From the NCBI RefSeq assembly GCF_000376385.1, contig NZ_AQWN01000006.1, positions 1-64,000 on the forward strand: a DNA stretch of 64,000 bases. Reading direction: 5' to 3'. A program made the position numbers and the translations under genes. The notes under the pieces were generated by a model, which ran no database searches, was not told the origin of the DNA, and saw nothing but the letters and a program-made list of their open reading frames with translations. This document shows, one piece after another, positions 5,450-41,492 of this stretch. The DNA comes from Desulfurispora thermophila DSM 16022 (GTDB lineage Bacteria; Bacillota; Desulfotomaculia; Desulfotomaculales; Desulfurisporaceae). Every line of letters starts with the position of its first letter. Positions within the stretch are counted from its first letter, which is position 1.

Positions 5450-5472
5450 TGTGGCAGTTAAATAATTATCTA

Positions 5473-5620
5473 CCTGGAGTGAGTCCCCAAGGGAAAGTCA
5501 GTGCAAGTCTGACGCGGTCTCGCCCACTGTGAGGGGGAACCTGCCGCATTCATGCCACCGTTTGCAGCGGGAAGGCGCGGTAAGGTAATGAACCCGAGCC
5601 AGGAAACCTGCTTGCTCCAG
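5473..5620 (+). ncRNA. Cobalamin (AdoCbl) riboswitch aptamer
   Basis: CTGGAG (5474-5479) pairs with CTCCAG (5615-5620) as the closing helix. Inside are the hallmark pieces: GGGAAAGTC...GTCTGACGC, CCCACTGTGAG, GGGAAGGCGCGG, ATGAACCCGAG and the B12 box AGCCAGGAAACCTGC at 5597-5611. It precedes the cobalt transporter operon, as expected for a switch that shuts off cobalt uptake when B12 is plentiful. Confidence 0.93.
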
Positions 5621-5684
5621 CACCACGTATACCACCCGCGAGGATGGGAGGTGTGGCGGCATGAGAATGACTGCCTGCCCTTTT

Positions 5685-31033: not shown

Positions 31034-32782
31034 TCAATCCGGGACAGGACAGCTTATTTTCAGGCGCTCCAACCGGGTATACAAACGGGAACGACTCATA
31101 TTCAACAGGCGGGCGGCCCGAGCCTTGTTGCCTCCCGTACGCCGCAGCGCAGACAGGATCATTTCCCTTTCCGCCTGTTCCAACCTTTCCCGGTAGGATG
31201 CAGCCCCTTCCTCTGCCGCCTGCCCGGTTGTCCCTCCGGGCAAAGCCCTTTCCCCGTCATCCTTCTCCCTGTCCGCCGCCCCACCCGGCAAAACAGCGCC
31301 GCCCAACAAATAGGCCGGCAGGTGCTGCAGCCCGATGCGACCGCTTTTGGCGTAAACCACGGCTCTCTCCACCACATTTTCCAGCTCACGCACATTGCCC
31401 GGCCAGTGGTAGGAATACAAGACCTGTCTGACTTGCAGGCCGATCCCGCTAACCGATGCGCCCAGCGCTTTGTTGAACCGGTCGATAAAATAGCGCACCA
31501 GCAGGTCTATATCCTCCCCGCGCTGGCGCAGCGGAGGCACCTGCAGGCCAATCACATTCAGGCGGAAAAAGAGATCTTCCCGAAAACGCCCCTGTTTGAT
31601 CATGGCTCCCAGATCCTGGTTGGTGGCCGCAATGATACGCACATCAACGCGCTGCGGTTTGGTATCACCCACCCGGACTATTTCCCTGTCCTGCAAAACG
31701 CGCAGCAGTTTGGCCTGCAGCACCAATGACATATCGCCAATTTCGTCCAAAAACAGCGTCCCTCCATCGGCCAGAACAAAGCGCCCCGGCTTGCCCGCCC
31801 GGTCCGCCCCGGTAAAAGCCCCCGGAGCATAGCCAAACATTTCACTTTCCAGGAGCGCTTCAGGGATGGCAGCGCAGTTTACCGTAACAAACGGGCCCCT
31901 GGCGCGGGGACTCAGGCGGTGAATGGCCCGCGCCACCAGTTCCTTGCCCGTCCCCGATTCACCGGTGATCAGCACAGTGGAAACCGTCTGGGCCACCCTG
32001 TATATCTCTTCCTTCAGGCGGCGCATGACAGTGCTTTCTCCCACCAGCATGTCTTTCCACATTTCCAGCTCCTGGGCCATTTTTTCCAGCTCAATTATAT
32101 CATGCAGTACGATCACCGCTCCCGCCTCCTCCCCCCCGGGCACGGGCAGGATATTGGCCAGCAAAGTGAGATGGCCCAGGTTGACACGCTGGCCCAAACA
32201 TGCCTGTCCATGCAGCGCTTTTTCCACAGACAGGCCGGGCAAAAAGGCCTGCACATACTCTCCGGTATGCCGGGCAGAATCGAGACCCAGAATGGTTTCT
32301 GCCGCCCGGTTAAGCAAGGTCAGACGCTGCCACCTGTCCACCGCCAGCACGGCATTGGGCAGAGCGTCCAGGATAGCCTTCAGCCTGGCGTTCAACAGGT
32401 CGGACTGTTTTAACAATGTGATCACCATATTGGTCTTGGTGAACATGCCCAGAAAACAACCGCTTTCATCCAGGACGGGCGCGGAACCAACCGGACTGGT
32501 TCTGACATTCTCCATCACTTCCTCATAGGGCATGTTGCCCGGTACCGCAACCACATCGCGGCGATAATATTTGTCAACAGGTTGGTTCAGGCCGGCCTCC
32601 TGCAGTAGCGCGTCAAAGAGATCCGTACGCGTGAGCACGCCCAGCAGTTTGCTCTGCTCATCCACCACCGGCAGGCTGTCCACCCGGGCACTGCGGAAAA
32701 AGAACAGCGCGGTGCGCAGCGTGTCGCCACACTTCAAAGAGGGCACATCTCTCCTGATCATGTCCTTGAGATACAACGACAT
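31034..32782 (-). CDS. Sigma54-dependent transcriptional activator with CBS and PAS domains
   Basis: A 582-residue regulator. In order: a CBS pair (about 1-120) likely sensing an adenylate or CoA-type ligand, a PAS module (about 130-235), an AAA+ domain (about 245-480) with GESGTGKE, the sigma54 contact loop GAFTGA and LFLDEIGDM, and a C-terminal Fis-type helix-turn-helix (about 530-575). It should activate sigma54 promoters; the operon immediately downstream on the same strand is the natural target. The CBS-PAS input suggests sensing of metabolic state rather than phosphorylation. Confidence 0.9.
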
Positions 32783-33136
32783 CCACTCCCCGCACCAATT
32801 TGTTCGTTTAATTCCGATTATAACAAAGAATTGTTGAAAAATGGTTATTATTAATTATTTCACAATATACCGAAGGCCTGCCGGCAAGTGTGAAATAAAT
32901 CCGCCCGGTGGCAACAATTAGGGACCCAAAGGTTGCAGAAAGACTGTTACCAATGATGTATTACTTGTTCTCTAGTACACACAAAATAAATGACCATTCA
33001 CCATCGGAATATTGTTATTTGTCAGAATTATATAAACAAATCAGTCTTTTACTCTTATAATTTATTACAGGACATTATGACATCCATTTTAATTCGGGGG
33101 GCACAAAATACACGCCATAACCGGGAGGTTGATAAG
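32783..33136. promoter_or_regulatory. Divergent intergenic region with a 10-bp inverted repeat
   Basis: About 350 bp between the sigma54 activator and acs. TTATTTCACA (32855-32864) and TGTGAAATAA (32889-32898) are perfect inverted repeats 34 bp apart (start to start); they could form a stem or bind a dimeric regulator. The rest is AT-rich, with TTATAATTT about 80 bp upstream of acs as a possible -10. No gene is visible. Confidence 0.45.
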
Positions 33137-35083
33137 ATGAGTGAACAAACCACCATTGCCGCTCTGTTGCAAGAAGACCGCATTTTTCCCCCACCGCCAT
33201 CATTTACCGAACAAGCCGTCGTCCGGGACCATTCTCTCTACGAGGAGGCCGCAGCTGACCGCATTGCTTTCTGGGCGCGCATGGCCACGGAAAATGTCAG
33301 CTGGTTTGTTCCGTGGGAAAAGGTCATGGAATGGGAACCGCCCTTTGTCAAATGGTTTACCGGCGGCAAGCTCAATGTTTCTTACAACTGCATTGACCGG
33401 CATCTGAACGGCTGGCGGCGCACCAAGGCAGCCATCATCTGGGAAGGTGAGCCCGGCGACAGCCGCGTGCTGACCTACCAGGAGCTCTACCGGGAGGTTA
33501 CCAAGTGTGCCAATGTGCTCAAAAGGCTGGGAGTGCAAAAGGGCGACCGGGTCACCATTTACCTGCCCATGATCCCGGAACTGGCCATTGTCATGCTGGC
33601 CTGCGCCCGCATCGGCGCCCCGCACAGCGTGGTCTTCGGAGGTTTCAGTGCCGAAGCGCTGGCCGACCGGATCAACGACTGTCAGGCCAAACTGGTGATT
33701 ACAGCCGACGGCGGCTGGCGGCGGGGCGGTATCGTACCCCTGAAGAAAAACTGCGACGACGCGCTGCAGCAATGCCCCACCGTGGAAAAGGTGATTGTTG
33801 TCAAACGGACGGGCAGTGAGATTAACTTCCAGCCCGAGCGCGACCTCTGGTACCACGAACTGATGGAGCAGGCGGCTATTGGTTGCCCGCCCGAAGCCAT
33901 GGACGCCGAGGATACCCTGTTTATCCTCTACACCAGCGGCTCCACCGGCAAACCCAAAGGGGTGCTGCACACCACGGGCGGCTACCTGGTGGGTGTCAGC
34001 ACCACCCATAAATATATTTTTGATATTAAAGATGATGATATTTACTGGTGCACGGCGGACATCGGCTGGGTGACCGGGCACAGCTATATTGTCTACGGCC
34101 CGCTGACCAACGGCTGCACCACCGTCATGTACGAAGGCAGCCCCGACTGGCCCGACCGGGGGCGCTTCTGGGCCATAATTGAAAAATATGCGGTGAATAT
34201 CCTCTACACCGCCCCCACGGCCATCCGGGCCTTTATGAAATGGGGACCGCAGTGGCCGCAGAAACATGATCTGTCCAGCCTGCGCCTGCTGGGCACGGTT
34301 GGTGAACCCATCAACCCGGAAGCCTGGATGTGGTACTACAAGTATATCGGCCAGGAAAGATGCCCCATTGTGGATACCTGGTGGCAGACCGAAACCGGCA
34401 TGATCCTTATTTCTCCCCTGCCCGGCGTCACACCGCTCAAACCGGGCTCGGCCACTGTTCCATTCCCCGGTGTGGAAGCGGAAATTGTGGACAACAGTGG
34501 TAATCCGGTTCCCCGGGGCAGCGGCGGCTATCTGGTGATCAAGTCGCCCTGGCCGGCCATGTTGCGCACTGTCTACGGCGATCCCCAGCGCTACATTAAC
34601 CAGTATTTCAGCCGTTTCGGAGAAAAGGTTTACTTCACCGGTGATGGAGCCAAATGGGATGAAGACGGCTACTTCTGGGTCATCGGCCGGGTGGACGACG
34701 TCATCAATGTCAGCGGTCACCGCCTGGGTACCATGGAAATTGAAAGCGCCCTGGTAGATCACCCGGCCGTGGCGGAAGCGGCAGTGATCGGGAAAGCTCA
34801 CGAACTGAAAGGGCAGGCTGTGGCGGCCTTTGTCACCCTGAAAGAAGGCATCGCCGGTACCGACGAGTTAAAAGAAGAGATCAAGGCCCATGTGGTGAAG
34901 AAGATCGGCGCCCTGGCCCGACCGGAAGACCTCTATTTCACTGCCGAACTGCCCAAGACACGCAGCGGTAAAATCATGCGCCGCCTGTTGCGGGATATAG
35001 CCGAGGGCCGTGCCCTGGGCGACACTACCACCCTGGCCGACCCGTCGGTAGTTGCCGCATTGAAACAGCAATACAGCGAATAG
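33137..35083 (+). CDS. acsA: Acetyl-CoA synthetase, AMP-forming
   Basis: A 648-residue adenylate-forming enzyme converting acetate, ATP and CoA to acetyl-CoA. Signatures: [20 protein letters not shown] (P-loop), [24 protein letters not shown], and near the C-terminus [18 protein letters not shown] with the Lys that is acetylated in this family. Propionate or other short acids remain possible substrates. ATG 33137 follows GGGAGG. It is transcribed away from the acyl-CoA operon and is followed by a carrier gene, suggesting organic-acid uptake and activation. Confidence 0.93.
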
Positions 35084-35101
35084 AACAGCGACTCGCTCCG
35101 G

Positions 35102-35130
35102 GCGGAGTGCCCAACCCGGGCATTCCGCTC
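35102..35130 (+). other. Hairpin between acs and the MFS gene
   Basis: GCGGAGTGCCC and GGGCATTCCGC form an 11-bp stem (one G-U pair). No T run follows, so it may stabilise or attenuate rather than fully terminate the acs transcript. Confidence 0.4.
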
Positions 35131-35185
35131 GCCAACACCGCTGCAAACCGGAAAATTCACTTTAATTTAAGAAAGGATGGTTATC

Positions 35186-36448
35186 ATGTCCCCTCCCCAA
35201 CAACCCGGTGTGGGCAGGGCCTGGGCCGTCACCTTTGCCGGCACGGGCATCAATCTGGCCCTAGGTGTTCTTTACAGCTGGAGCGTTTTCGCCAAAGCCC
35301 TGGTGGATCAGTTACACTGGAGCAAAACCGCTTCCCAGCTCCCCTACACCCTGGCCTGTGTGGTTTTCGCCATCTGCATGATCATTGCCGGCCGCTGGCT
35401 GGACCGGGCCGGACCACGCATTGTGGCTACGGTGGGCGGTATCCTGGCCGGCAGCGGGATGATTTTAGCCAGCTTATCCACTTCGGTCACCACCATCACC
35501 ATCGGCTTCGGCCTGATCGTGGGGGCCGCCATGGGCTTTGGCTACGCCGCCCCCACCCCGGCCGCGGTCAAATGGTTTCAGCCCCACAAAAAGGGGCAGA
35601 TCTCGGGACTGGTAGTAGCGGGATTCGGCCTGGCCTCGGTCTACATCGCCCCCATGACCAACTACCTGATTAAAACCTATGGTGTGCAAAGGGCTTTCTT
35701 CATCGAAGGTATCTTTTTCCTTACCGTCATTGTGCTGCTGGCCCAGTTGCTCTCCTTCCCGCCCCAAGAGAATTTCGTACCCTTCGGCGGGCCTCCACCG
35801 GAGAAACGCGCCGCTGCAGCGACTGCCGTAGCCAACAGACCGGACTACTCCCCGGCCGAAATGGTTCGCACACCACAGTTTTATCTGCTGTGGCTCATGT
35901 TCTGCTTTGCGGCCTCGGCCGGCCTGCTGATTATCGGCCACCTGGCCAAGATATCCCAGATCCAGGGCGGGATCAACTGGGGGTTTATGCTGGTGGCAGT
36001 GCTGGCCATAGCCAACGCCGGCGGGCGCATTATCGCCGGATGGGTTTCCGACCGCATCGGCCGCACCAGCACCATGCTGATCGTGTTTTCCCTGCAGGCC
36101 CTGAACATGTTCATGTTCTCCCACTACAAAACTCCGCTTACATTGCTGCTCGGTTCTGTACTCACCGGCCTGGCATACGGTTCGTTACTCTCCCTTTTCC
36201 CTTCCACAACTTTTGACTTCTTCGGTCTGAAGCACGCCGGTTTGAACTACGGTCTGGTATTCAGCGCCTGGGGAGCAGCCGCCCTGATTGGCCCAATCAT
36301 TGGCGGCCGGGCCGCCGACTTAACGGGTGGTTATCAGGCCAGCTACATCATCTCGGGCGTCCTGCTGCTCATTGCCGCCGCGCTCTCATTCATCACCAAA
36401 GCACCGGGCGATAAAAAGAACGCCGTACCTGTCCAGTCGTCCACATAA
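35186..36448 (+). CDS. MFS transporter, oxalate/formate antiporter-like
   Basis: A 420-residue carrier with twelve predicted membrane helices. The first helix region ALGVLYSWSVFAKAL and the GRWLDRAGPR loop after helix 2-3 fit the OFA family, which moves small carboxylates. A second-half loop GRIIAGWVSDRIGRTS mirrors it. Location 100 bp after acs suggests uptake of acetate or a related monocarboxylate (inference). ATG 35186 was preferred to ATG 35177, which lies on the GAAAGG ribosome site. Confidence 0.88.
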   Translation: MSPPQQPGVGRAWAVTFAGTGINLALGVLYSWSVFAKALVDQLHWSKTASQLPYTLACVVFAICMIIAGRWLDRAGPRIVATVGGILAGSGMILASLSTSVTTITIGFGLIVGAAMGFGYAAPTPAAVKWFQPHKKGQISGLVVAGFGLASVYIAPMTNYLIKTYGVQRAFFIEGIFFLTVIVLLAQLLSFPPQENFVPFGGPPPEKRAAAATAVANRPDYSPAEMVRTPQFYLLWLMFCFAASAGLLIIGHLAKISQIQGGINWGFMLVAVLAIANAGGRIIAGWVSDRIGRTSTMLIVFSLQALNMFMFSHYKTPLTLLLGSVLTGLAYGSLLSLFPSTTFDFFGLKHAGLNYGLVFSAWGAAALIGPIIGGRAADLTGGYQASYIISGVLLLIAAALSFITKAPGDKKNAVPVQSST

Positions 36449-36461
36449 AGAATAATTTAAA

Positions 36462-36515
36462 CAATCCACAACTTTATCCACAACTGTTAATAAGTTATCA
36501 ACAGTTTGGGGATAA
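36462..36515. promoter_or_regulatory. Second cluster of DnaA-box-like 9-mers
   Basis: TTATCCACA (36474-36482) and TTATCAACA (36495-36503) on the plus strand, CAATCCACA (36462-36470) as a weaker one, and TTATCCCCA on the minus strand (36507-36515), within 54 bp between the MFS gene and a small ORF. Confidence 0.55.
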
Positions 36516-36580
36516 AAACCTCCACCTCACTGTCATATCCGGCCTTGAGCCGCCATATAAAAGGCAGTGAGGTGTTTATT

Positions 36581-36793
36581 ATGCGTGATTTGCTGCCGCT
36601 CTACCAGCAGAGACAAAAAATGCTCCAGGACTACCTGTGCCGGCTGCGACCGGGTCTTACGGAAGCAACGCCCGCTGCCATGCTCGCCTCGCTCAATCGC
36701 AAACAACAATTGCTGCAGGAATATCACAGACAAATGAATGCCAGCGCTGCGCAAGAAAGTGTCACAGCGAGCATATCCGTGTGCAAGAAATAA
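36581..36793 (+). CDS. Small hypothetical protein
   Basis: A 70-residue, mostly helical, Gln/Leu/Arg-rich protein (MRDLLPLYQQRQKMLQDYL). No family recognised; it lacks the SQELD motif of Spo0E-like peptides. GTGAGGTG lies upstream of the ATG at workable spacing. The ribosome site is inside a potential stem CCTCACTG/CAGTGAGG. Lies between a DnaA-box cluster and the large RNA candidate. Confidence 0.5.
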   Translation: MRDLLPLYQQRQKMLQDYLCRLRPGLTEATPAAMLASLNRKQQLLQEYHRQMNASAAQESVTASISVCKK

Positions 36794-36852
36794 GCAAACC
36801 GGTTAATGCTCTGCAGCCTGCCGCTACGGCTCACCACAACCCGGGGCTGCCT

Positions 36853-36882
36853 TTGCCTTTTTCACCAACTGGCTGATATAAT
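36853..36882 (+). promoter_or_regulatory. Sigma-A promoter of the large RNA candidate
   Basis: TTGCCT (36853-36858) and a perfect TATAAT (36877-36882) with an 18-bp spacer; predicted start near 36889. Confidence 0.65.
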
Positions 36883-36888
36883 AATAAC

Positions 36889-37495
36889 CACAGCGAAAAA
36901 AACCATAACAGCAGTGATGCAGTATCCTAGTCGGGAAGCCTTTTCTGAAGGCGGGGCTAAAAATCCGCCAAGGGCACATCGATGAAGTTCCTGGTGCTGG
37001 CTTTCGATGCCAACGGGGGCTGGTACTGGGAGTTAAGGATTTAGGGCTACATACAAGGGCATGTATGGATGTCCCTATTTCCGTGGAGACCCGGGAGGTA
37101 GGCCTTTACCTAAAGTAAGGCTTGCGCCCGGGAAGAACCTGCACGTGGCAGCAACTGCGTGCAGTGTAGCCCGCCTTGAAGTGGCGCAGGGGGGATGGCG
37201 GTATCCACGCTTGAAACCCTGGCTGCAAAAGAGGCTAGGGAAAGGCCTACCGTCAAGGAAAACTTCTAGGCTGTCCGCCATCAGGGCGGGGCAGGACGGG
37301 AATTAAAGTGCGGACTAAGTGGCAATCCGGTTCCGGCTTTTCATACCGGGGGCAGTTTGAAAGGGAAACCGCCTGTACGGCAACGGCAGGTAATTGCCCG
37401 GGAAATCCTACCGGACCTAAGCCGCAAAGTTTACCCGCTCTGCTATCACTGCTCAAAGCAAAAGGCATCCCCTGCGGGAGTGCCTTTTTATTTTC
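36889..37495 (+). ncRNA. Candidate large structured non-coding RNA (about 600 nt)
   Basis: About 700 bp here have no plausible protein gene but show ordered RNA structure. The 5' end AGCAGTGAT (36910-36918), GCAG (36919-36922) and CGGG (36932-36935) pairs with ATCACTGCT (37445-37453), CTGC (37440-37443) and CCCG (37434-37437), closing a 544-nt domain. Inside are CCCGGG/CCCGGG (37090-37095 with 37127-37132), TGCACG/CGTGCA (37140-37145 with 37158-37163), ATGGCGG/CCGCCAT (37195-37201 with 37275-37281), and GCGG/CCGC plus TCCGG/CCGGA (37310-37330 with 37411-37425). A promoter precedes it and a strong terminator follows. Size and host type fit OLE RNA, but no OapA gene is adjacent and I cannot confirm the class from memory. 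Confidence 0.7.
37461..37495 (+). terminator. Rho-independent terminator of the large RNA candidate
   Basis: AAAGGCA (37461-37467) pairs with TGCCTTT (37481-37487) and TCCC (37468-37471) with GGGA (37476-37479), with a single bulged G, followed by TTTATTTT. Confidence 0.85.
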
Positions 37496-37504
37496 CCGCT
37501 CCGT

Positions 37505-38581
37505 TTATCCGCCTCTTTTGTTGCGATAAGCCGAAGGGGTCATGCCGGACATCTTCTTGAAGACACGGGCGAAATAACCGCTGTTTTTAAAGCCCACCTC
37601 ATAAGCAATTTCATCAATTGTCCGGTCGGAGGAAACCAGCAGTTCTTTGGCCCGCTGGATGCGCAGTTCACTCAAAATGGCCATGAAATTGGTGTTCATC
37701 TTGGTCTTAAAAATGCGGCTCAAGTAGGCAGGACTCAAATGTACATGGCGGGCCAGGTCATTCAAATTAATATCATCGGTATAATGTTGTTCAATGTATT
37801 TCAAGGCCCGGCGCAGGGCCAGGTGTTCTGCACCGGGATGTTTTTCCGCCCCGCAGTTACAAAGCATCTCCACCATCTCGTTGGCCCAGTTCTGCCAGTC
37901 TTCCACACTACCTATTGATCCCACCAGTTTGGTCTGCTGGCGTACTTCTTTTTCCAGCGTGCTACCCTCCGTGCCGGCATCCAGCAGCGCGTGCGCCCCG
38001 ATGATGAGCAAGTCATAAGCCAAACCTTTCAACTGCCCGGGCGAGGGATTGCTGGCCGCCTGACAAAAGTTCTGCAGTATTTTATCCACCGCCCGGCGTA
38101 CCTTTTCCCGCTCCTGCTTTTTCACCGCCTGCAGGTAGTCGCTTAAATTTTGCGCCTGCCAGATGATGTTGTCCGCTCCCCGCCAACCTTTCAGCAAAGG
38201 GTTCATGCGATCCAGCGCCCCGCTCACAGCCTCGGTTAGCTCAGAAGGGCGAAATGGTTTGAGCAAAAAATCCGCCACACCTGTGCGGATGGCCTGACGG
38301 TAGATGGCCGGCCCGGCCACCTCGGAGACAATAATTACCTCGGTACCGGGCAGGATCCTTTTAATTTCGGCCGCCACGGCCAGACCATCCTGGTCGGGCA
38401 GACCATAGTCCATGACCACCAGATCGGGTAACAGCTCTCTGGCCATCTTCAGGCAGGTCCCACCACTGCCGGCCTGTCCCACCACTAAAAGCGGTAAATT
38501 ACTCTCCCGGACGGTTCTGTATAATATCTGCCCCCCCAGCAATTCATCTTCCGCCAGCAGTATCTTATACAAAATTCCCAC
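37505..38581 (-). CDS. Response regulator with AraC-type DNA-binding domain
   Basis: A 358-residue two-component regulator. The receiver (about 5-120) has the acidic pair in LLAEDE, phospho-acceptor Asp58 in VVMDYGLPD, and Lys in LLKPF. A middle helical linker (about 130-245) follows, then an AraC/XylS domain (about 255-355) with LNDLARHVHLSPAYLSRIFK and IDEIAYEVGFKNSGYFARVF. The build is that of YesN-like regulators. No kinase is next to it; the gene is convergent with the RNA candidate. Targets unknown. Confidence 0.9.
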   Translation of the reverse strand: MGILYKILLAEDELLGGQILYRTVRESNLPLLVVGQAGSGGTCLKMARELLPDLVVMDYGLPDQDGLAVAAEIKRILPGTEVIIVSEVAGPAIYRQAIRTGVADFLLKPFRPSELTEAVSGALDRMNPLLKGWRGADNIIWQAQNLSDYLQAVKKQEREKVRRAVDKILQNFCQAASNPSPGQLKGLAYDLLIIGAHALLDAGTEGSTLEKEVRQQTKLVGSIGSVEDWQNWANEMVEMLCNCGAEKHPGAEHLALRRALKYIEQHYTDDINLNDLARHVHLSPAYLSRIFKTKMNTNFMAILSELRIQRAKELLVSSDRTIDEIAYEVGFKNSGYFARVFKKMSGMTPSAYRNKRGG

Positions 38582-38833
38582 CCCGCCCCTGGTTTTGCTT
38601 GGCCAGCGCCGCGGCCGGTTCTCCAGACCGACCCCGGTTCCAGATCCATTCTACAATATTTTTACCGGCAACAAAATAATACAGATCTTTTTTCATAATT
38701 TTAACATGATTACAACATATAACCATACAATACTTGCATGAATTAAATAATCTCTGCCGAGGTTTGCAAACTTTTTAATTGAATTTATTTTAGCAACAAA
38801 AAATAAAAACAAACAATTACAGGAGGGAGCAAT

Positions 38834-40228
38834 ATGCATTCACCAACCAATGAAGGCCTGCACCGGGGGTTACAGGAAAGACACATCCAGTTGATAGCCC
38901 TGGGCGGCGCCATTGGCGTGGGCCTGTTCCTGGGTTCCGCCACGGCCATCAAAACGGCCGGCCCGGCCCTCATGCTGTCCTACTTCGTCGGCGGACTGGC
39001 CATCTTTGTCATTATGCGCGCCCTGGGCGAACTGGCCGTGGCTTATCCGGTTGCGGGCTCATTCAGCACCTACGCCTACAACTTTTTGGGTCCCCTGCCC
39101 GGCTACATCACCGGCTGGACCTACTGGTTCATGTGGGTGGTCACCTGTATGGCGGAAATCACAGCGGCGGGCATCTACATGACCTACTGGTTTCCCGGCA
39201 CACCCCAATGGGCCTGGGCCCTGGCTGCTCTGACCATCATGACCATTGTCAACCTGATTAACGTAGCAGCTTACGGAGAATTTGAATTCTGGTTTGCCTT
39301 AATTAAAGTTGTCACAATCATCTTAATGATCATTGTCGGCCTGGGCATGATTATTTTCGGTATTGGAAACCAGGGCGTACCCATCGGCATCAGCAACCTG
39401 TGGTCGCACGGCGGTTTCTTCGCCAAAGGGTTTTCCGGCCCGGCCCTGGCCCTGGTGATGGTGGCCTTTGCCTATCTGGGCATTGAGCTGATTGGCGTCA
39501 CCGCCGGCGAAGCCCAGAACCCGGAAAAAACCATTCCCGCGGCCATTGACAAGGTTTTCTGGCGGATTTTGATTTTCTATGTGGGCGCACTGTTCGTCAT
39601 CATGTCTTTATTCCCCTGGAATGAAATTGGCACCAAAGGCAGCCCCTTTGTGATCACCTTTGACAAAATCGGTATTCCGGCCGCCGCTGGCATCATCAAC
39701 TTCGTGGTGCTGACCGCCGCCCTGTCTTCCTGCAACAGCGGCATCTTCAGCACCGGCCGCATGCTCTACAACCTGGCCCTGCAGAAAAAAGCCCCGGCCA
39801 CGTTCGGCAAGCTGAGCAAGACCAGTGTACCGGTCAACGGTATCATCGTCTCGGCCGCCTTTCTGCTCATCGGGGTGGTGCTGAACTATCTGGTACCGGC
39901 CAAAGTCTTTGAATATGTAACCAGTGTGGCCACTGTCGGCGCCATCTGGATCTGGGCCGTCATCCTGCTGGCTCAAATCAACTATCGCAAATCACTTTCA
40001 CCGGAAGAAGTCGCCCGGCTCAAATACCCCATGCCGCTCTGGCCCATTGCCTCTTACCTGGCGCTAGCCTTCCTGGCCATGGTGGTAATCATGATGGCCT
40101 TCAGCGAGGGTACCCGGGTAGCCCTGTATGTGGGCCCCGTGTGGTTCGGCCTGTTGATTGCTTCATACTATGGACTGGGCTTCCATAAAGAAGAAAGCAG
40201 TACCCGCCCGGCTTATGCCAAAAGGTAG
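38834..40228 (+). CDS. Amino-acid permease (AAT/APC family)
   Basis: A 464-residue carrier with twelve predicted membrane helices. The start GLHRGLQERHIQLIALGGAI and GVGLFLGSATAIKTAGPA and the GELAVAYPVAGSFSTYA loop are typical of the AAT family (CycA, ProY, AnsP relatives). Its neighbour, alanine dehydrogenase, points to alanine, serine or glycine uptake (inference). ATG follows GGAGGG. Transcribed in the same direction as ald, but a separate promoter region lies between them. Confidence 0.9.
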   Translation: MHSPTNEGLHRGLQERHIQLIALGGAIGVGLFLGSATAIKTAGPALMLSYFVGGLAIFVIMRALGELAVAYPVAGSFSTYAYNFLGPLPGYITGWTYWFMWVVTCMAEITAAGIYMTYWFPGTPQWAWALAALTIMTIVNLINVAAYGEFEFWFALIKVVTIILMIIVGLGMIIFGIGNQGVPIGISNLWSHGGFFAKGFSGPALALVMVAFAYLGIELIGVTAGEAQNPEKTIPAAIDKVFWRILIFYVGALFVIMSLFPWNEIGTKGSPFVITFDKIGIPAAAGIINFVVLTAALSSCNSGIFSTGRMLYNLALQKKAPATFGKLSKTSVPVNGIIVSAAFLLIGVVLNYLVPAKVFEYVTSVATVGAIWIWAVILLAQINYRKSLSPEEVARLKYPMPLWPIASYLALAFLAMVVIMMAFSEGTRVALYVGPVWFGLLIASYYGLGFHKEESSTRPAYAKR

Positions 40229-40261
40229 ATACGCGGGCGAGCAAAGGATGCACACCCGCGA

Positions 40262-40318
40262 TTGACAAGTTGAAATTACGCTGTATTGCTTGTTTACACC
40301 CGCTAATTTTACGCTGTA
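40262..40318 (+). promoter_or_regulatory. ald promoter region with direct repeats TTACGCTGTA
   Basis: TTGACA (40262-40267) is a perfect -35 with a weak -10 (TATTGC, 40284-40289). TTACGCTGTA occurs at 40276-40285 and again at 40309-40318, 33 bp apart, one copy in the promoter spacer. A hairpin CGCGGG/CCCGCG lies just upstream. Confidence 0.5.
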
Positions 40319-40352
40319 GTACTAAAAATATATCCGAGGAGGTCTTTGTGCA

Positions 40353-41492
40353 ATGATTATCGGTGTTCCCAAGGAAATCAAGAGCAATGAAAACCGGGTG
40401 GCCATTACCCCGGCCGGTGTGCAGGCCATGGTCAAAGCCGGCCACAAAGTGGTAATCGAAAACAATGCCGGCGTGGGCAGCGGTATCAGCAACGAGGATT
40501 ACATTGCCGCCGGGGCGGAAATCCTGGCCACCCCGGCCGAGGTATTTGCCGCCGCGGACATGATCATGAAGGTGAAAGAACCCCTGCCGCCGGAGTACGG
40601 CCTGTTTAAAGAAGGGCAAGTGCTCTTCACCTATCTGCATCTGGCTCCCGAACCCGAACTTACCCGCGCCTTGCTGGACAAAAAAGTGGTGGGCATTGCT
40701 TACGAAACCATCCAGCTGCCCAACGGCTCCCTGCCCCTGCTCACACCGATGAGCGAGGTGGCCGGTCGCATGGCCGTACAAATCGGCGCTCAGTTTCTGG
40801 AAAAGCACAACGGCGGCCTGGGCATCCTGCTGGGCGGCGTGCCCGGTGTTCCCCCGGCCAAAGTAACCATCATCGGCGGCGGTGTGGTAGGTACCAACGC
40901 GGCCAAAATCGCCCTGGGCATGGGAGCCGATGTAACCATCCTGGACTTGAACGCCAACCGTCTGCGCTACCTGGACGACATTTTCGGCTCCCGCATCAAG
41001 ACCCTGATGTCCAACAGTTACAATATTGCAGCTGCCGTAAAAGAAGCTGATTTACTAATTGGTGCTGTGCTCATCCCCGGCGCCCGCGCACCCAAGCTGG
41101 TGACCGAAGAAATGGTCAAACAAATGAAACCGGGCTCGGTAATCGTGGACGTGGCCATTGACCAGGGCGGCTCCATCGAAACCGTGGACCGGGTGACCAC
41201 CCATGCGGAGCCCACATATATCAAACACGGGGTTGTGCACTACAGCGTGGCCAACATGCCCGGCGCCGTAGCCCGCACTTCCACCTTTGCTCTGACCAAC
41301 GTGACACTGCCCTACGCCTTAAAACTGGCCAACAAGGGCTACCGGGCAGCGATCAAGGAAGATGCCGCACTGGCCAAGGGTGTTAATGTGATTGACGGTA
41401 AAGTCACCTACCGGGCTGTAGCCGAGTCCCTGGGTCTGCCCTTCACCCCGCTCAGCCAGGTACTGGAAGTACCGGCCGGTTTTGTTGATTAA
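40353..41492 (+). CDS. ald: Alanine dehydrogenase
   Basis: A 379-residue NAD-dependent enzyme interconverting alanine and pyruvate. The start [20 protein letters not shown], Lys75 (MKVKEP) and His96 (YLHLA) of the active site, and the nucleotide fold [17 protein letters not shown] are all present, with [13 protein letters not shown] near residue 265. It follows the amino-acid permease, suggesting alanine use as carbon, nitrogen or germination-related substrate. Ribosome site GAGGAGG. Confidence 0.96.

Follow-up and report, generated by a model that had tools for sequence, protein, structure and literature searches.

To our knowledge, few structured bacterial RNAs that still lack a known biochemical function are as large as OLE RNA, and descriptions of its dimer and of its proposed insertion into the membrane are recent. 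It has been reported that OLE binds the proteins OapA, OapB, and OapC, is located at the membrane, and is required under Mg2+, cold, and alcohol stress (PMC9723947, PMC11332333, PMC12265935). The ole gene lies directly upstream of oapA "almost always" (PMC9723947), an arrangement that is typical rather than strictly defining, and H. halodurans OLE mutants grow poorly on alternative carbon sources (PMC10898510). In the cryo-EM dimer, the palindromic loop of P9 constitutes bridge B3, while L5/L6 are part of bridge B2 (PMC12286853; PMC12265935).

The window, that is, the whole 64-kb stretch (64,000 nt) of Desulfurispora thermophila DSM 16022 analyzed here, contains a genuine OLE RNA at 36898–37465 on the forward strand. 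The Rfam scan of the window matched RF01071 (OLE) with 447.6 bits against a curated cut-off of 50 (E 3.7e-128); the match is full length, covering positions 1–616 of the 616 of the model, and a scan of all 19 contigs showed it to be the sole copy in the 2.82-Mb genome. No other large RNA family, including ROOL, GOLLD, and HEARO, reached its cut-off in the window. The initial annotation, made from the sequence alone, had proposed an independently transcribed, highly structured RNA without a protein gene, either an OLE RNA that had been displaced or another class of large RNA; the comparison with the Rfam models decides for the first of these. The absence of a protein gene was also borne out, since the longest open reading frame shifts between frames and strands among the homologues and no conserved protein frame was found.

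In the OLE tree, the window RNA falls into a clade of ten OLEs with a support of 100/100 (P9 columns left out). Its members come from the window genome, which by kinship is apparently a lone family within the order of the Desulfotomaculum-type Bacillota, from eight genomes of family f5 (Desulfocucumaceae-type), namely Desulfocucumis palustris, Peptococcaceae BRH_c4a, BRH_c4b, and BICA1-7, and four bins, and from an unplaced bin (L164). The last was the one member contributed by scanning about 85,000 species genomes for the motif GGGGCTAAAAATCC, and it lies on a 3.8-kb contig; the scan gave 57 matches, mostly canonical OLEs with oapA adjacent, and the motif is too loose to serve as a clade marker. 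Judged from these sequences, the clade is a distinct, slimmed-down OLE lineage.

The members of the clade are separated from oapA. OLE was found in 101 of 113 genomes of the host's class, where oapA lies 2–378 nt downstream of all 89 canonical OLEs with readable downstream DNA (a further canonical locus, G040, lacks downstream DNA and stands outside the 89), against none of the nine clade loci of that class, the window and eight others; one of the nine (G027) has only 552 nt of downstream DNA, and its oapA is on another contig. In the scan of about 85,000 genomes, oapA was adjacent in 38/38 canonical matches with enough downstream DNA by our own count, and the OLEs without an adjoining oapA were the clade group and L164. 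At the window locus, ole is preceded by acs, which encodes an AMP-binding acetyl-CoA synthetase, and by an MFS transporter gene of the L-lactate type, and is followed by an AraC-type response regulator gene on the opposite strand and then an amino-acid permease gene. These genes form part of a carbon-source cluster around ole (31034–41492), which also includes a sigma-54 activator with CBS domains and, by look, an alanine dehydrogenase-like ORF. In view of the growth defect of H. halodurans OLE mutants on alternative carbon sources, this placement of ole may carry meaning, or it may be due to chance. Between the transporter gene and ole, a small ORF of at most 95 aa lies at 36506–36793 (+), probably read from an internal ATG, and has no Pfam or NCBIfam match; a cobalamin riboswitch (77.4 bits in the Rfam scan) occurs at 5464–5629 (+). 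No plasmid or viral carriage of the locus was found.

All three partner genes are present in the window genome. The initial annotation had remarked that oapA was missing, which is correct for the neighborhood, as none was found in the 64-kb window, yet the genome does encode OapA: a profile of true OapA proteins matched C3:215930–216493, on another contig, with E 1.4e-79. This oapA lies between ispA and dxs, in the usual place of the ole–oapA pair, 55 bp from ispA and with no OLE in the gap, so that "displaced" is an apt description: an intact oapA occupies the ancestral operon position without ole. Those f5 genomes whose loci could be read have the same ispA–oapA–dxs order without ole, and no ole remnant was detected at the orphan oapA genes by Rfam scan (L052–L056) or nhmmer (L052–L057). 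The OapB gene lies between map and infA, its product matching PDB 7k9b, "OLE-associated protein B" (E 4.9e-8), and the OapC gene follows rpoC, its product matching the YbxF structures 4lck/3v7e (E 2e-15). The CNNM Pfam model PF01595 matched nothing in the genome, which at first suggested an OLE without OapA, an idea dropped because the true-OapA profile found the protein. Loss of OapA was likewise considered and dropped for G029, G031, and G040, where the OapA profile search detected no match; these are best read as gaps, since the expected place lies past the contig end in G031 and G040, and in G029 ispA was also not found and the assembly is 84% complete.

The RNA is highly structured, as had been claimed. 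The fold of 36898–37465 has an energy of −244 kcal/mol (z −6.1), and none of 100 shuffled sequences folded as well. Within the clade, the Rfam helices are paired in 90.4% of cells, compared with 38–47% in slid controls, and 31 pairs are changed on both sides; this covariation in relatives shows that the structure is under selection. The helix said to join the two ends of the RNA (9+4+4 bp) also withstood comparison over ten relatives, with 85.3% of cells paired against 21–46% when slid, two doubly changed pairs, and compensatory UA/AU swaps in its first part, although its outermost pair and the last pair of its GCAG part are poorly kept. Its arms in the P1/P2 region are AGCAGTGAT and GCAG at 36910–36922 (+) and CTGC, T, and ATCACTGCT at 37440–37453 (+). 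Further helices, whose P-numbers were assigned from their succession in the Rfam structure and from published accounts rather than from a superposition on the cryo-EM model, are all on the forward strand. The P4 hairpin (36950–36969), with its A-rich loop CUAAAAA, which is bridge B1 in the cryo-EM dimer, is 100% paired in its helix; the P5/P5.1 hairpin (36988–37032) is flanked by k-turn elements and keeps GGGAGTTAAGG in 10/10 members; and the Rfam alignment, pairing, and clade comparison place the P6/P6.1 hairpin, with the loop CAAGGGCATG, at 37037–37082. By Rfam alignment and pairing, the P7 (37090–37132) and P8 (37139–37164) hairpins are retained.

The clade differs from the other OLEs in, among other features, loops that make dimer contacts. 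The L5.1 loop reads GCCCA in 90/90 other OLEs and in 0/10 clade members, all ten of which have the shortened GCCA. The A-rich L4 loop is present as CTAAAAATCCG in 10/10 members, and its first base, C in the other OLEs, is G in every member. Relative to the same 90 OLEs, GAGGAAAAC is replaced by AAGGAAAAC and GGTAATC by GGCAATC, while the k-turn-side sequences, as well as the CAGTAT.CTAGTC and ACATCGATGAAG stretches, are kept in 10/10 members. P9 (37173–37235) is truncated: its base and conserved internal loop remain, and a short hairpin stands in place of the distal arm and its GGGCCC kissing loop (B3). The P9 arm measures 37–65 nt in nine clade members, 44 nt or less in seven of them, compared with 54–90 nt in the others, of which all but one have 75–90 nt. 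A palindromic P9 loop of the GGGCCC/GGCC type occurs in 74/74 other OLEs with readable anchors and in 0/9 clade members, a count to be read with the possibility of a chance loop palindrome in the three members with longer arms. An OLE outside the clade, in bin KA22 (L169 5794–6353, −), also has a short P9 arm of 41 nt without a palindrome and has oapA adjacent; its arch was apparently lost independently. Loss of the OapB-binding P13 tip was considered as a hallmark of the clade and dropped, the motif being absent from several canonical OLEs as well.

Transcription signals flank the RNA on both sides, and both the promoter and the strong terminator of the initial annotation were recovered. The promoter (36853–36882, +) consists of a −35 element TTGCCT (36853–36858), an 18-nt spacer, and an extended −10 element TATAAT (36877–36882); it is sigma-70-like with an extended TG, has 10/12 matches, and is the single such site in 900 nt, where 0.5 would be expected. 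Transcription would start near 36889. The intrinsic terminator (37460–37494, +) is a hairpin followed by a T-run and overlaps the 3' end of the Rfam match, where conservation is poor; its hairpin has an energy of −15.5 kcal/mol (z −2.9), and 0/200 shuffles gave an equally good fold. Read by eye, the other clade members have a TTTTACA and TATAAT-like pair at the corresponding upstream position, and each clade OLE is followed by an inverted repeat and then T-rich sequence, unlike the canonical OLE of Peptococcaceae BRH_c4b, which runs directly into oapA. Clear terminator hairpins were obtained in three of the four regions folded, the fourth having been cut inside its stem by the chosen coordinates. 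A promoter of its own would not by itself be new, because the ole gene of H. halodurans is also reported to have one despite its operon setting (PMC9723947).

From the above, the locus is best understood as a functional OLE RNA that is transcribed alone and assembles in trans with OapA, OapB, and OapC, a reading to which we give a probability of about 0.88. The ole gene would be transcribed from its own promoter and stopped at its terminator, giving an RNA of about 600 nt that would fold into the OLE structure; OapA from the distant ispA–oapA–dxs operon would then join the RNA in trans, together with OapC (YbxF) and OapB. The product would be the membrane OLE ribonucleoprotein that is needed in H. 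halodurans under Mg2+, cold, and alcohol stress. The same particle is expected because the partner genes and most sequence blocks are intact, while it may differ because this RNA lacks the B3 kissing loop that other OLEs conserve. As the P9 arch is lost and L5.1 is shortened, dimerization, if any, should rest on L4 (B1) and the altered L5.1/L6.1 contact (B2).

The alternative that survives best is a functionally distinct paralogue, in which ole was duplicated in the common ancestor of Desulfocucumaceae and the window genome; the new copy would have moved, shed its P9 arch, and taken up a new role or assembly mode, and only Peptococcaceae BRH_c4b (G030) would still retain the canonical one. This genome carries both OLE types (517.8 and 407.2 bits) on different contigs (L036, L037), the canonical OLE with oapA and the arch-less OLE near rplU–rpmA–spo0B–obg, between rpmA and a Spo0B-like gene; in a 398-genome sample of the phylum, none of the genomes among the matches listed showed two full-length OLE copies. 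In the OapA tree, the window genome and f5 group together in one clade (SH-aLRT 97), as vertical descent would give, and a tree joining the OLE clade with the canonical OLE of G030 fits no worse than the unconstrained one (p-AU 0.547), which makes a duplication with later loss of the original copy possible, not proven; on these sequences, transfer and duplication are both compatible with the tree test. The window-genome OapA (L052 6022–6609) has the longest branch of its clade (0.61), possibly reflecting faster change after the switch of OLE type. Against a new role, the same partner genes are kept and most genomes hold one OLE type only, which suggests replacement instead, and a functionally distinct paralogue appears unlikely. 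It may tentatively be proposed that duplication gave rise to a second, arch-less paralogous OLE, whose transcription is independent of OapA and which took the place of the canonical OLE in one lineage; two different OLE RNAs would then share one OapA in at least one genome and give two different particles per cell.

That the RNA is a degenerating, functionless relic is very improbable; the lost P9 arm, the shortened L5.1, the separation from oapA, and the lower model score would fit decay, but the clade-wide covariation with its doubly changed pairs, the long invariant stretches, the conserved promoter and terminator motifs, and maintenance across several genera speak against it. Two further explanations can be practically dismissed: a protein gene or another class of large RNA, for which no support was found beside the RF01071 match and the lack of another large-RNA match or conserved reading frame, and an assembly artifact with oapA truly beside ole, for which the draft state of the genome (19 contigs) might be cited, but ole is flanked on either side by other genes within the continuous 64-kb window, oapA occupies its canonical operon in the interior of a 301-kb contig, and independent assemblies show the same separation.

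The preferred reading, a functional OLE assembling in trans, concerns a lineage in which one dimer bridge is gone, another contact loop has changed shape, and the dosage of the RNA is no longer tied to OapA, while covariation remains strong. Such a lineage indicates which parts of OLE are changeable and offers a natural test of which parts matter, and the genome with both OLE types makes a direct in-cell comparison possible. An OLE clade unlinked from oapA and with altered dimer loops appears to be new, as no account of such a clade or of a genome with both kinds of OLE was found in the literature examined, which does not extend to the original 2006 and 2011 papers.

Compared with canonical OLE (RF01071; H. 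halodurans, C. acetobutylicum, C. botulinum), the window OLE shares the helices, among them P4–P9 and the 3' domain, the conserved blocks, and the OapA, OapB, and OapC genes; it differs in not lying beside oapA, in having its own promoter and terminator-like sites, in lacking the distal P9 arm with its GGCC kissing loop (B3), in its L5.1 of GCCA instead of GCCCA, in its L4 starting with G instead of C, and in its length of 568 nt compared with about 600–620. ROOL, GOLLD, and HEARO are also large, ornate bacterial noncoding RNAs, but they have no Rfam match in the window. A described form with a reduced structure is OLE variant 1 of the TANB77 clade and others (Fernando and Breaker 2024, PMC11332333), which scores 310–390 bits with its authors' own model, a scale not interchangeable with the Rfam score (PMC11332333). 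P9 is short in both, and the P13 tip motif is missing in most clade members, as it also is in some canonical OLEs. Unlike variant 1, in which P7, P8, and P9 are shortened, the window OLE has its P7 and P8 helices; its host is no reduced gut symbiont and keeps OapB and OapC; and the papers examined describe neither a separation from oapA nor a canonical copy in the same genome.
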